Shown piece by piece: positions 38,610 to 42,828 of a DNA stretch of 64,000 nucleotides. The position numbers and the translations under genes are program-made. Under the pieces are notes generated by a model, which was not told the origin of the DNA, ran no database searches, and saw nothing but the letters and a program-made list of their open reading frames with translations. The number at the start of each line of letters is the position of its first letter. Within the stretch, counting starts at the first letter, position 1. Origin of the DNA: an uncultured archaeon (lineage in GTDB: Archaea; Thermoplasmatota; Thermoplasmata; Thermoplasmatales; Thermoplasmataceae); the NCBI GenBank assembly GCA_000965745.1, contig CP009479.1, positions 816,457-880,456 on the forward strand, read 5' to 3'.

Positions 38610-39110
38610 CTACCAGTAGTCTTTGTTGACGAAATCGTCGTAAAGCTCTGCGATGTAGTTTTTGTTGTTCAGCTGATTGTCCGCCAGAGTCTTGAGAACG
38701 CCTGAAACTTTGGCATCACTATATTCGTTCGACATCAGCTCCAGCACATTGTGAATGTCGTTAGACATCTTCATGGCCTTCAGGAGCACACTTTTCATAT
38801 CATTGGCATTAACATCCGCCAAGTCCTGGGTAACCAGATGATCAAGCATTTCGAAGCTTCTGGCATCAGACGGTTCCTGCACCTCTTCAAATTCTCCTTT
38901 GTCCAGGGCATCCCTTATCATTACCAGATCTCTCTCTTCGTTTTCCAGAAGAGTCTCGAGCATCATTCTCACATGATCCACGCTGGATTCTTCATACAGT
39001 TCCCTGTACCTGTCCACCATCTTCTCCTTAAGGCCGAATGCTTTTTTCAGAAGATTTTCCCTAACTTCTCCAGATTCTTTTCCAGATATTGTCGAATTGG
39101 CTTTTGTCAC
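38610..39110 (-). CDS. Ferritin-like four-helix protein lacking clear metal ligands
   Basis: A 166-aa helical protein. The layout of four long helices (KKAFGLKEKMVDRYRELYEE, LETLLENEERDLVMIRDAL, and LLKAMKMSNDIHNVLELMSN, LADNQLNNKNYIAELYDDF) resembles rubrerythrin/ferritin-like bundles. The canonical E-x-x-H pairs are not visible: the second position reads DNQLNNKNY. It may be a degenerate or structural relative. The start GTG 39110 is chosen because AGGAGGAAGTCA lies just upstream; the open frame begins at 39140. It is adjacent to the mobile unit, whose left boundary is about 94 bp away. Confidence 0.65.
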   Translation of the reverse strand: MTKANSTISGKESGEVRENLLKKAFGLKEKMVDRYRELYEESSVDHVRMMLETLLENEERDLVMIRDALDKGEFEEVQEPSDARSFEMLDHLVTQDLADVNANDMKSVLLKAMKMSNDIHNVLELMSNEYSDAKVSGVLKTLADNQLNNKNYIAELYDDFVNKDYW

Positions 39111-39195
39111 TGACTTCCTCCTAACATAAATTATAACCAATCAAGCTTATAACCTTTGCCATGCGCCTTATACAGAGGTGAACGCCTTTTAAACC

Positions 39196-39203
39196 AGAAA
39201 ATG
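39196..39203. repeat. Left target-site duplication, AGAAAATG
   Basis: Eight bases immediately outside the left inverted end of the mobile unit. The same AGAAAATG lies directly outside the right end at 42140-42147. A perfect 8-bp duplication is strong evidence that the whole 39204-42139 segment inserted as one unit. Confidence 0.8.
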
Positions 39204-39225
39204 GAGACTGTCAATTGTTAGTTGA
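39204..39225 (+). repeat. Left terminal inverted repeat of the mobile unit
   Basis: Begins GAGACTGTCAATTG and ends GTTGA. It pairs with the reverse complement of 42118-42139 at 16 of 22 positions, with conserved TGTCAA and GTTGA blocks. It also pairs with the internal copy (13 of 22). Confidence 0.72.
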
Positions 39226-39268
39226 AATTCTGTGATTTCCAGTCTCTCGACCGCAATCATGAAACATA

Positions 39269-40469
39269 ATGAGTACATCACATTCCATGCGGATACGCCG
39301 GATCCCAGGCATATCTAGGGTCGTTATTACAACAAACCTTGATGACTATTCCGGTGATCATCCATCCTCGCCTCTCAGGCTGGAAGATCAGCCCACAAAT
39401 ATCAGGTTCAGCAGTGACGGCACTCCCATACTGCACTACAGGGACCCTATCTGTCCCAGATGCTTCTCCAGGGATGTCTCAAGGAACGGTACATACATGA
39501 GGGAAGTGCAGGGCCACAGTGTGAAGATACAGAAATACATCTGCAATGCCTGCTCCTTCTCCTTCGAGGCAAGGCCTCCGGGATACGGGTACGGAAAGCA
39601 TATCCCTGAGGATCTGAGGGAAAAGACCATGAAATCTCGCGTGCTCTCATCCCTCAGGAAGGCTGCACAGATGTGCGGCATATTCCTCGGAACATCAGTT
39701 TCACACGAGTCGGTGAGGACATCTGTACCTGACATGCCTTTCCGGCATGAAAGGGAATCCTCAGGATATTTCTCATACGACGAGCAGTACGTGAAGATCA
39801 ACGGCCAGAGAAGATACAGGTTCCTACTCAAGGATACTGTCACTGGTGAGTTTCATGAGGACATCCTGCTGGATCTGGGTGAGGATTCCACCACCTCATT
39901 CATCCTTGACGCACTCAGGAGATTCTCCATTGGTTCTGAGATAACAGTGACAACAGACGCTTATCACTACGAGGACGCATTCAGGAATGTCTCCCGGCAA
40001 CTTCACATAAGAGTTAGGAGGCAGAGGTGCCTCTTCCACCTCCTCAAGGACCTGAGGAAGAAGGCATATGATTCAGGCAGGAAGGATGAGCTGACTTCAG
40101 CACTGGGTCTCATAAATTACACGTTCTTCCAGACTCCTGAGAACCTGGAGAAGCTTGGAAAAAATGCGGAGCCTGTCAAGAGGAAGGTCTCAGGAAAGTC
40201 TGAAAAGGAGGCGACATTCATTCTCCTTGGTCTTGTGAGGGATCTCTATTCCGGCGATCCTGTCATAGGTAAATTTCTGAAGCAGATAAGGAAGAACAGG
40301 AGGGAGATATTCTGGTATCTCGAAGATCGGAAGGTCAACAGAACAAACAACGTTGCCGAGCATCATTTCCCCCAGAGATCTGAACCTCCTTAAGAGGAGG
40401 TTCAAGACCGATGATGGACTGCTCAGGACATCCTACTGGTACCACCGGTACTCATCAACCGGAAGTTGA
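39269..40469 (+). pseudogene. DDE transposase with a late frameshift
   Basis: The uninterrupted frame (39269-40393) gives 374 aa. An N-terminal zinc ribbon has CPRC (residues 62-65) and CNAC (92-95). Candidate catalytic residues are D171 in FSYDEQYV, D230 in VTTDAYHYED and E364 in NNVAEHHF. After HHF the frame ends SEPP. Removing one C from the run CCCCC at 40369-40373 restores a tail PRDLNLLKRRFKTDDG and onwards to TGA 40467-40469, the likely original C-terminus. The enzyme could be inactivated, use +1 frameshifting, or the run could be a sequencing error. Because the catalytic triad precedes the shift, partial function is possible. Confidence 0.75.
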
Positions 40470-40476
40470 CGACGTC
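40455..40476 (-). repeat. Internal copy of the right inverted end
   Basis: Reverse-complement reading begins GACGTCGTCAACTTCC. It is 19 of 22 identical to the outer right end (42118-42139) and in the same orientation. It overlaps the last codons and stop of both the transposase continuation frame and the small passenger gene. The flank beyond (CCCTTTTG) does not match AGAAAATG. Confidence 0.7.
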
Positions 40477-40850
40477 CCCTTTTGAAAGAACTTGTATACT
40501 AACGAATAATTGATTAACGATGCAGGCCAGAATGCTATTAACCTGCTGCCATCAACAATCCCTACAAGAAAGAGGAGTATTGGAATTATCTGAAGAGTAA
40601 TCGCCATCCACTTTATTCTAATTCCAAGAAGCCAAAGTACAGGGATCAGGAGCAGGAAAAATGACATGAATATGTTATATCTTAATGTTGCAGCTCCATT
40701 AATTGGATCAGAGTAATACATTCGTTGAGAATAGAATGCCAAAATAGTTGCAATTATTGATATGATTGCAATTAGATTCCATACCAGGTTGCTTCGAAAG
40801 TGGGAGCGCCTTAATCCCTTAACCTCATCTTTTTCCATTTCTAACACCAT
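40455..40850 (-). CDS. Passenger gene: small four-helix membrane protein
   Basis: A 131-aa protein with hydrophobic helices at about residues 22-42, 58-78, 82-100 and 103-120, and a basic N-terminal segment. No family recognised. ATG 40848-40850 overlaps the stop of the upstream exported-protein gene as TGATG, so translation is probably coupled. The last residues (about TSSTSG) are encoded by the internal inverted-end copy, so the C-terminus was set or altered by the element. An immunity or membrane partner role for the exported protein is inference. Confidence 0.65.
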   Translation of the reverse strand: MVLEMEKDEVKGLRRSHFRSNLVWNLIAIISIIATILAFYSQRMYYSDPINGAATLRYNIFMSFFLLLIPVLWLLGIRIKWMAITLQIIPILLFLVGIVDGSRLIAFWPASLINYSLVYKFFQKGTSSTSG

Positions 40851-42061
40851 CAAAGTATGTTTTGCGTATATTGCTCGTCGTAGTTATTTGACACATATTG
40901 GTTATAAAGGACACTTGAGGACCATGTGTCCCAACTAGCAGTAACACCGTTCCAATATTTAATGGTGTTACTGATGTAAACATGGCCATTCCCCTGATTA
41001 TTTATAGTGACAACTATGTTTGGGAAAGCCTCCCAGTATGTATATCCTTGGAACGGAAATTGAGCATACAGTTCGATGTAATAGGATGAAGTTGCAGAAG
41101 TAGAACTATGCTGGTAACTATCCGTGATTATGGTCGGGTAAGAATATTCCCAGTAGTAATAATCAAGAGAATAATAATTATCATTGGCTCCACTCACATA
41201 GCTTCCACCTTGTCCACTCCAAGTCACAGCCAGTGATGCAGTAGCATCCCACAAATGTATACCTGGCACTACAGTGTGATCCCATTCAGGAAGTGTTCCT
41301 GTTACGGAAGTTCCAAAATTAGAACCTCCGCCGCCACCTGGTGGGGTGGGCGCCAGTGGGGAATTAACAACGAAGTTAGTACTCTTAGCGTTAGATGAAA
41401 CAATACCCTGCCCGCTCGCAGGCAAGAACTGTGGTGCGAATAAGTAGGCCATTGTGGGATCATAATTAATTGAGGCAAAGAATTGACTGAATCCTGATGA
41501 GGCAGTCTTATGCACAGTCAGAATGTTAAGGTTACCAGTTTTTGAATGTAGCAAGCTCATATATACGTAATCAATAAGATTGTCCTTTGAATGAGATATC
41601 ACTGTCGCATACAAAACCCCATTCGACATATAATCAGGAATCTTGGATGAATTGTAATATGACGATTGATTCTTAAATGACTCAAATTGACGCACCTGAA
41701 ATGTGGAATGAGAGTATCTAGACGTACCGTTGTTTGTCAACGTTGAACTCAAAGTCACGTTGTTTTTATCAGATAAATTGTAAGATACTATTGTGTGAAC
41801 AAGATATGTTGTGCTATCATTTGAATCACCCATTGTTATCCTATAGCTAACTTGAGCCGTCAATTGAATACCTGATGTCAGGTTTGTCAAATTGCTATTA
41901 TTACCGGAGATAGCAGAGGTTACCAACGCAGGTTGAGAATTTACGTCTGCCGTGTTTGTAATAGCCGAATTGTTGTGATACGATGTTATAATTGCAAAAG
42001 ATGCACCGATCATCACTGAAGAGAGAAGAAGAGAAACCATAATTTTTATTTTATGGCTCAT
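40850..42061 (-). CDS. Passenger gene: exported, Asn-glycosylation-rich protein
   Basis: A 403-aa protein of unknown family. The N-terminus KIKIMVSLLLSSVMIGASFAI is a signal peptide or anchor. The first half has many N-x-S/T sequons (NNSNLTNLTSG, NNVTLSSTLTNNGTSR). A glycine linker (PTPPGGGGGSNFG) joins it to an aromatic-rich second domain with many Tyr and Trp residues (DNYYSLDYYYWEYSY). The open frame extends to 42121, but ATG 42061 (MSHKIK) follows the A/T tract at 42083-42099 and matches the signal peptide. Base composition is visibly more A/T-rich than the surrounding genes, which supports transfer. Confidence 0.7.
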   Translation of the reverse strand: MSHKIKIMVSLLLSSVMIGASFAIITSYHNNSAITNTADVNSQPALVTSAISGNNSNLTNLTSGIQLTAQVSYRITMGDSNDSTTYLVHTIVSYNLSDKNNVTLSSTLTNNGTSRYSHSTFQVRQFESFKNQSSYYNSSKIPDYMSNGVLYATVISHSKDNLIDYVYMSLLHSKTGNLNILTVHKTASSGFSQFFASINYDPTMAYLFAPQFLPASGQGIVSSNAKSTNFVVNSPLAPTPPGGGGGSNFGTSVTGTLPEWDHTVVPGIHLWDATASLAVTWSGQGGSYVSGANDNYYSLDYYYWEYSYPTIITDSYQHSSTSATSSYYIELYAQFPFQGYTYWEAFPNIVVTINNQGNGHVYISNTIKYWNGVTASWDTWSSSVLYNQYVSNNYDEQYTQNIL

Positions 42062-42082
42062 TAAATTAATAACCAAGTTCTG

Positions 42083-42099
42083 TATATATATATATATAT
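42083..42099. promoter_or_regulatory. Alternating TATA tract at the right end of the unit
   Basis: A run of TATATATA repeats that reads as a TATA box in both directions. Leftward it sits about 25-30 nt before the passenger gene ATG at 42061. Rightward it could drive transcription out of the element through the inverted end into rpe (start 42184). Bidirectional use is inference. Confidence 0.5.
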
Positions 42100-42117
42100 T
42101 TCTATCTTGCGTAATCA

Positions 42118-42139
42118 TCAACCAGAAGTTGACAATGTC
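42118..42139 (-). repeat. Right terminal inverted repeat of the mobile unit
   Basis: Read on the minus strand it begins GACATTGTCAACTTC and ends GTTGA. It pairs with the left end and is bounded outside by AGAAAATG (42140-42147), the right copy of the target duplication. Confidence 0.72.
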
Positions 42140-42147
42140 AGAAAATG
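42140..42147. repeat. Right target-site duplication, AGAAAATG
   Basis: Identical to 39196-39203. It lies 37 bp before the rpe start codon, so the insertion landed in the rpe upstream region. Confidence 0.8.
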
Positions 42148-42183
42148 CAAAAATGGTTAAGAGAAGTTTCCATCAGGTCTTGC

Positions 42184-42828
42184 ATGCTGGTTTCACCATC
42201 GATTATCTCTTCAGACCTGAGGGTGTTGCAGAACCAGATTGAAGAATGCGAAAGGCATGGGGCTGCATCATTCCATCTTGATGTGATGGACGGACACTTT
42301 GTTCCCAACCTGACAATGGGCCCTGACATAGTAAAAGCAGTTAGAAAATCTACAGAACTGCCGTTAGAGGTGCATCTCATGATTGACAGGCCAGACAGAT
42401 ACTACACCAAGTTTGCAGAATCTGGCTCTGATATCCTCCTCATACATTACGAATCTCCAGTCAATCTGAGGGGCCTTTTCAACAACATGAAGAATGAAGG
42501 CTTGAAGTATGGCCTCGTCATCAATCCCGGGACAGAATTCAGGGAGGTCTCTGATCTTCTCGATGGAACGGAAATTCTCCTGATAATGTCAGTGCATCCC
42601 GGGTTCTCTGGCCAGAAATTCATTGACGTGACTGACAAAATATCGGAAGCATCAGCCTTCATCAAGGACAACGGGCTGGGCACGAAGATAGAAGTGGACG
42701 GTGGAATCAACCTTGAGACTGGAAAAAAATCGGCCAAGGCCGGAGCGGATATCCTGGTGTCTGCATCCTACATATTCTCTGGAACCATAAAAGAAAGAAT
42801 AGGGAGCCTTAAAAGACTCACCAGGTGA
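42184..42828 (+). CDS. rpe: Ribulose-phosphate 3-epimerase
   Basis: Interconverts ribulose 5-phosphate and xylulose 5-phosphate in the pentose phosphate network. The TIM-barrel protein shows SPSIISSDL, the metal-binding HLDVMDGHFVPNLTMGP, PLEVHLMIDRPD, MSVHPGFSGQKFI and the phosphate loop EVDGGINLETGKK. ATG 42184 (MLVSPSIIS) gives 214 aa and begins at the first barrel strand. The open frame reaches 42145, inside the target duplication, but that part looks like upstream sequence. The insertion separates the gene from the pre-insertion upstream A/T sequence near 39186-39194. Confidence 0.93.
   Translation: MLVSPSIISSDLRVLQNQIEECERHGAASFHLDVMDGHFVPNLTMGPDIVKAVRKSTELPLEVHLMIDRPDRYYTKFAESGSDILLIHYESPVNLRGLFNNMKNEGLKYGLVINPGTEFREVSDLLDGTEILLIMSVHPGFSGQKFIDVTDKISEASAFIKDNGLGTKIEVDGGINLETGKKSAKAGADILVSASYIFSGTIKERIGSLKRLTR

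Follow-up and report, generated by a model that had tools for sequence, protein, structure and literature searches.

The locus described here lies in the chromosome of an acid-loving archaeon, within a 64-kb stretch of DNA that was analysed as a whole and that we refer to as the window. Between positions 39204 and 42139 the window holds a 2936-bp (2.9-kb) segment bounded by related inverted ends, the left one, GAGACTGTCAATTGTTAGTTGA, agreeing at 16 of 22 positions with the reverse complement of the outer right one, GACATTGTCAACTTCTGGTTGA. A perfect 8-bp direct duplication, AGAAAATG, abuts both predicted termini to the base. From left to right the segment consists of an insertion sequence (IS), made up of a left end, a transposase gene and an inner right end, followed by a complete operon of two genes, here called the passengers, and an outer right end (Table 1). 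The outer ends, the duplication and the contents, namely a DDE transposase and two opposite-strand genes unrelated to transposition, had been recognised in an earlier, sequence-only reading of this DNA and are all borne out by the present analysis; the inner right end and a one-base frameshift in the transposase gene had been overlooked.

Table 1. Features of the 2.9-kb unit and its flanks (positions in the window)
Position	Strand	Feature	Basis
39196..39203	.	Left copy of the target-site duplication, AGAAAATG	Sequence; 8/8 pair with 42140-42147
39204..39226	+	Left end of the IS, GAGACTGTCAATTGTTAGTTGAA, of the 'beta' subgroup type (relatives G009, G014)	End profile
39269..40393	+	ORF of the DDE transposase, with a zinc ribbon at the N-terminus and a frameshift near 40384	Profile, alignment, structure model
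40448..40476	-	Inner right end, GACGTCGTCAACTTCCGGTTGATGAGTAC, the ordinary end of a 1273-bp IS, without a matching duplication	
40455..40850	-	Passenger gene 2, encoding a four-helix membrane protein of 131 aa that has no known family	
40850..42061	-	Passenger gene 1, 403-aa secreted protein, no known family	
42083..42100	-	TATA-like run located between gene 1 and the outer end, 20-40 bp ahead of the start codon of gene 1	Sequence
42111..42139	-	Outer right end, GACATTGTCAACTTCTGGTTGATGATTAC, with canonical terminus GACATTGTC	End profile and comparison
42140..42147	.	Right copy of the target-site duplication, AGAAAATG	Sequence

The transposase is recognisable as a DDE enzyme from three residues, D171, D230 and E364, that are invariant in an alignment of nine transposases, and from a predicted structure that matches retroviral-integrase folds in Foldseek, the overall confidence of the model being moderate (mean pLDDT 70). 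Its frameshift is due to one extra C (gaaCctcc, where the related copy at C1:336 kb of the same genome has gaactcc), which falls after the catalytic E, removes ~25 conserved C-terminal residues and lets the shifted frame run on to a stop at 40467-40469. No curated family cut-off was reached in NCBIfam, where the nearest models are those of ISH6, IS1, the IS1/IS1595 zinc ribbon, IS66 and IS6, and the IS66 DDE domain of Pfam was reached marginally (23.3 bits against a cut-off of 23.1). A link to the IS1595 group, which had been raised in the sequence-only reading, did not extend beyond the N-terminal zinc ribbon; the match is to a ribbon model common to IS1 and IS1595, and no IS1595 DDE model is among the Pfam hits. 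Membership in IS6 was rejected on a score of 25 bits against a cut-off of 125 and on the spacing between the second D and the E, which is ~34 residues in IS6 and 134 residues, with an inserted helical segment, in the window protein. The ISH6 family (p-MULT 2, Mutator-like transposases) resembles the window element in being archaeal, in making 8-bp duplications and in encoding a DDE transposase, and the ISH6 model is matched by all nine aligned transposases (best E 4.5e-11). The window transposase nonetheless stays far below the ISH6 cut-off (16.9 bits against 240), and none of the eight duplications of its own family fits the ISH6 target motif, AANATNTT (PMC3942029), so that this assignment was rejected as well. 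As judged by the NCBIfam and Pfam models, the transposase family is apparently unclassified, with ISH6 and IS1 as the nearest groups.

Matches to this IS family occur in 31 of 77 genomes of the same archaeal family, and a single scan of GTDB contigs with the transposase returned four loci only, none of them near-identical. The host genome, a single contig of 2.23 Mb, contains a related IS of the 'alpha' subgroup in two full, nearly identical copies, with intact transposases of 399 aa (C1:319654-320921) that have 45% protein identity to the window transposase, as well as a partial copy close to the window's own type (beta) and several right-end remnants. One of these remnants, at L101:1501-1522 (G000 C1:342360-342381), is a lone right end with no duplication and no left end nearby, situated directly downstream of a molybdenum-hydroxylase-like gene cluster (CO/xanthine dehydrogenase type); another, of the alpha IS, lies inside a membrane-protein ORF at L020:2189-3223 (G000 C1:705853 region) and contributes to the C-terminal half of the encoded protein. 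By pairing ends and flanks we found seven passenger-free copies, in this and related genomes, with perfect 8-bp duplications. Six are simple copies of 1263-1291 bp (L002, L026/L053, L027, L029, L032 and L043). The seventh (G296 C72, L158:4945-7916, 2972 bp, duplication 8/8) was considered as a second passenger unit and rejected, since it carries no passengers and is enlarged by an unrelated IS nested in its transposase gene, with a 496-aa transposase of its own and ends GAGACTGTGTGAAAATTATT. With all seven copies at 8/8, a duplication of 8 bp is the rule for the family, whose eight duplications are AGAAAATG, AAAATAAG, GGTTCTTG, ATAGTTTA, CCTAAATG, GTAAAAAG, TAAAAATC and AATGTTAC. The host genome has no second copy of the 2.9-kb unit, and no relative examined carries the passengers within an IS; recurrence of the unit at several sites was not found. 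A similar layout in G014 (C6, L066:5404-9310) was also rejected as a second unit, as it is without a target duplication. There, a beta-type left end and an internally deleted transposase gene are followed by a gene that encodes, on the opposite strand, a secreted protein of 903 aa and then by a C-terminal transposase remnant of 225 bp with a right end, and both C-terminal remnants of the transposase begin at the same base.

The presence of two right ends in the unit is central to its interpretation. A 22-position profile built from the ends of the family gave 42139(-), 39204(+) and 40476(-) as its top three matches across the whole window, and in a scan with the 29-bp right end nothing besides the inner and outer right ends, which are identical to each other at 25 of 29 positions, matched above 18/29. 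Paired with the inner right end, the left end delimits 1273 bp, an ordinary IS length, and the flanks match at 2 of 8 positions only; paired with the outer right end it delimits 2936 bp and the flanks match at all eight, for which the probability by chance, with the ends fixed in advance, is p ~1.6e-5. The outer end also keeps the canonical terminus, GACATTGTC, whereas the inner end departs from it and reads GACGTCGTC. We infer that the outer right end is the one that was used in the last transposition. The two subgroups are intermixed at this locus. The left end (84/97 identical to the G009 copy over its first 97 bp) and most of the transposase gene are of the beta type, whereas the final 53 bp before the inner terminus of the IS (47/51) and the outer right end (26/29 to the alpha copies) are of the alpha type; from this joining of a beta-type body to alpha-type right ends, recombination has probably taken place between ends of different copies. 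The earlier interpretation, that of an IS with genes inside it, is incomplete because the internal right end turns the structure into one of an IS and adjacent genes, delimited by an alternative right end.

Comparison with related genomes provides a second line of evidence. In 11 relatives the divergent neighbour (the homologue of 38610-39140) and rpe are separated by 113-281 bp between matches, with neither IS nor passengers, and the corresponding gap in the window measures 102 bp once the unit is removed. The emptiness of the locus in these relatives marks all of the 2.9 kb as inserted DNA, without recourse to the duplication. The sequence-only reading had called for an empty site with a single AGAAAATG next to rpe; the emptiness of the locus was confirmed, and a base-exact site was not seen among the relatives, all of which are from other genera and have intergenic DNA too diverged to align. 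It had also named two outcomes that would tell against an insertion of the whole unit, the occurrence of the passengers at this locus without the transposase and a coincidental 8-bp match. No relative has the passengers at the rpe locus, and the match is both improbable by chance and of the family's own duplication length. That the unit was inserted as a whole is thus supported by the duplication at the outer end only, by the 8-bp rule of the family and by the empty locus. The unit ends ~45 bp upstream of the rpe start (42140-42184) and parts rpe from DNA once common with the divergent neighbour, and the rpe promoter may have been lost or changed through the insertion.

The passenger genes are compactly arranged, the start of gene 2 overlapping the stop of gene 1 (TGATG), and the TATA-like run ahead of gene 1 is, from the layout of archaeal promoters, likely the promoter of the operon. 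The gene 1 protein has an N-terminal hydrophobic signal, a Gly-rich linker (PPGGGGG) and a beta-rich C-terminal domain. The last six residues and the stop codon of gene 2 are supplied by the inner right end, so that the IS abuts the 3' end of the operon. At 0.38, the G+C content of the passenger block is below that of the IS part (0.49) and of the flanks (0.46), which indicates that the block is probably of separate origin. Relatives of gene 1 were found in G015, G291 and G282, each followed by a gene for a four-helix protein of 119-145 aa (with overlap of the two genes in G291 and G282), and no IS ends were found near these pairs. Since the same gene order occurs without an IS in three relatives, the passengers constitute a genuine host module. 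The module is rare, with gene 1 matched in 3 of 250 genomes of the class, in one of them marginally, and the four-helix membrane proteins of the pairs share only weak similarity. The host genome of the unit encodes, at L174:3679-4086 (G000 C1:359 kb), a protein distantly paralogous (30%) to the passenger membrane protein, with no gene 1 homologue recognised beside it. Searches of Pfam (above cut-off), PHROGs and PADLOC gave no known domain for either passenger, gene 1 had no PDB match, and a structure model of passenger 1 from two sequences was too poor to use (mean pLDDT 34). A virus or plasmid origin was rejected, as gene 1 has no relatives in viral contigs or plasmids in addition to its lack of a PHROGs match, and a defence role was rejected in light of the PADLOC result, the one weak match (E 0.007) being to a membrane protein of a relative.

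It is likely, in our judgement, that the IS and the operon moved as one unit, whether or not by way of a compound transposon. An archaeal DDE IS would have mobilised an adjoining operon by combining its left end with an alternative right end beyond the operon. The junction at which the inner right end adjoins the 3' end of passenger gene 2 is observed, and its formation is placed first in a presumed order of events. A short right end of the same family, also observed in the sequence, stood just upstream of the operon promoter and is probably a remnant of a second IS copy. The transposase would then have paired the left end with the outer end, and all 2.9 kb would have entered the interval that separates rpe from its divergent neighbour, with duplication of 8 bp, a step deduced from the duplication and from the empty locus in relatives. 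The altered terminus of the inner end, as opposed to the canonical one of the outer end, may be why the outer end was used. Counting against movement as one unit are the occurrence of the unit as a single copy in its genome, the divergence of the intergenic DNA in the relatives, among which no base-exact empty site was seen, the shortness of the outer right end (29 bp) and the frameshifted transposase. The frameshift would have been acquired since the insertion and, because of it, further movement of the window copy may need the help of the two related intact chromosomal copies.

Of the known mechanisms, the closest is that of ISEcp1-type units of bacteria (IS1380 family), which mobilise neighbouring genes by use of an alternative right end. 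In these units a left end, a transposase, an inner right end, adjacent genes and a second right end are surrounded by a single duplication, and the IS's own inner right end is kept inside. In the window, too, the inner end is retained and the duplication lies at the second end. An ISEcp1 unit with blaCTX-M-15, for example, moved from a plasmid to the chromosome, where it used another right end than it had previously and was flanked by a 5-bp repeat (PMC4048246). Unlike ISEcp1, the window unit has an unrelated transposase (with no IS1380-family match, only ISH6, IS1, IS66, IS6 and similar), a duplication of 8 rather than 5 bp, an archaeal host, an outer end that is a near-perfect family end, and passengers encoded on the opposite strand, none of them a resistance gene. 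From its sequence, it appears to work like the ISEcp1 units and is not one of them. In the broad sense the unit also belongs with the transporter ISs (tIS), IS-like elements that carry genes unrelated to transposition, such as those of the IS1595 group or ISDsp3 in the IS6 family (PMC3129680, PMC7986276), for it has two unrelated genes between duplication-bounding ends. It differs from these examples in the position of its passengers, which follow a recognisable inner right end and are external to a complete IS, and in its transposase, which is neither of the IS1595 nor of the IS6 type.

Compound transposons and IS26 pseudo-compound transposons share with this locus an operon between IS-derived ends in direct orientation. 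The unit is not a compound transposon in its present form, as there is one IS body and, on the other side, 29 bp of an IS end. It is possible, though we are doubtful, that it is what remains of one, in a sub-version of the favoured account whereby two IS copies of the same orientation flanked the operon and moved with it, the right copy then being lost save for its last 29 bp. The outer end does keep the tail of the transposase frame (SSTRS-stop as compared to SSTGS-stop) along with its alpha match of 26/29, and right-end remnants exist elsewhere in the genome (C1:342381, C1:705853), but a second copy is wholly absent upstream of those 29 bp, and the sub-version differs from the favoured account only in the timing of that copy's loss. 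Less likely than movement as one unit, and improbable in its own right, is a history in which the AGAAAATG duplication dates from the initial insertion of a simple IS, recombination at its right end subsequently brought in the operon together with the extra right end, and the passengers never travelled with the IS. Direct copies of the right end flank the passenger block, right ends appear to recombine, as seen from the alpha-type last 53 bp on an otherwise beta-type IS part, and the G014 gene enclosed by two transposase remnants with the same start base, and no duplication, could be read in the same way. A recent integration, however, would give identical right ends, and those observed differ at 4 of 29 positions; the canonical terminus is at the outer rather than the inner end, and an additional, unseen circular intermediate is required. 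That the IS and host genes inserted separately between 8-mers that match by coincidence is very improbable because AGAAAATG, although not rare (5 occurrences per strand of the window), abuts both termini to the base, at the chance of ~1.6e-5 given above, and has the family's own duplication length, and because the locus is empty in the 11 relatives.

Transposons that carry genes in this way are common among bacteria. According to a survey of integrated elements of archaea published in 2019, no composite DNA transposon carrying passenger genes had been detected in archaea (PMC6563490). With movement as one unit as the preferred reading, the locus is a well-bounded archaeal case of adjacent genes moved by an IS, provisionally the first, and its nested right ends offer a concrete mechanism. 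Further additions are a 1.27-kb IS family, found in Thermoplasmata, that makes 8-bp duplications and is apparently unclassified, and a rare, hitherto undescribed module of two genes. As the underlying principle is familiar from bacteria, the locus is notable rather than revolutionary. The secreted protein and its small membrane partner could, as a guess from their architecture, be a toxin-immunity pair. It is a long shot that the unit serves to spread them as an antagonism module, captured via the alternative right end; if this were true, the bacterial route of gene capture by ISs would also work in archaea.
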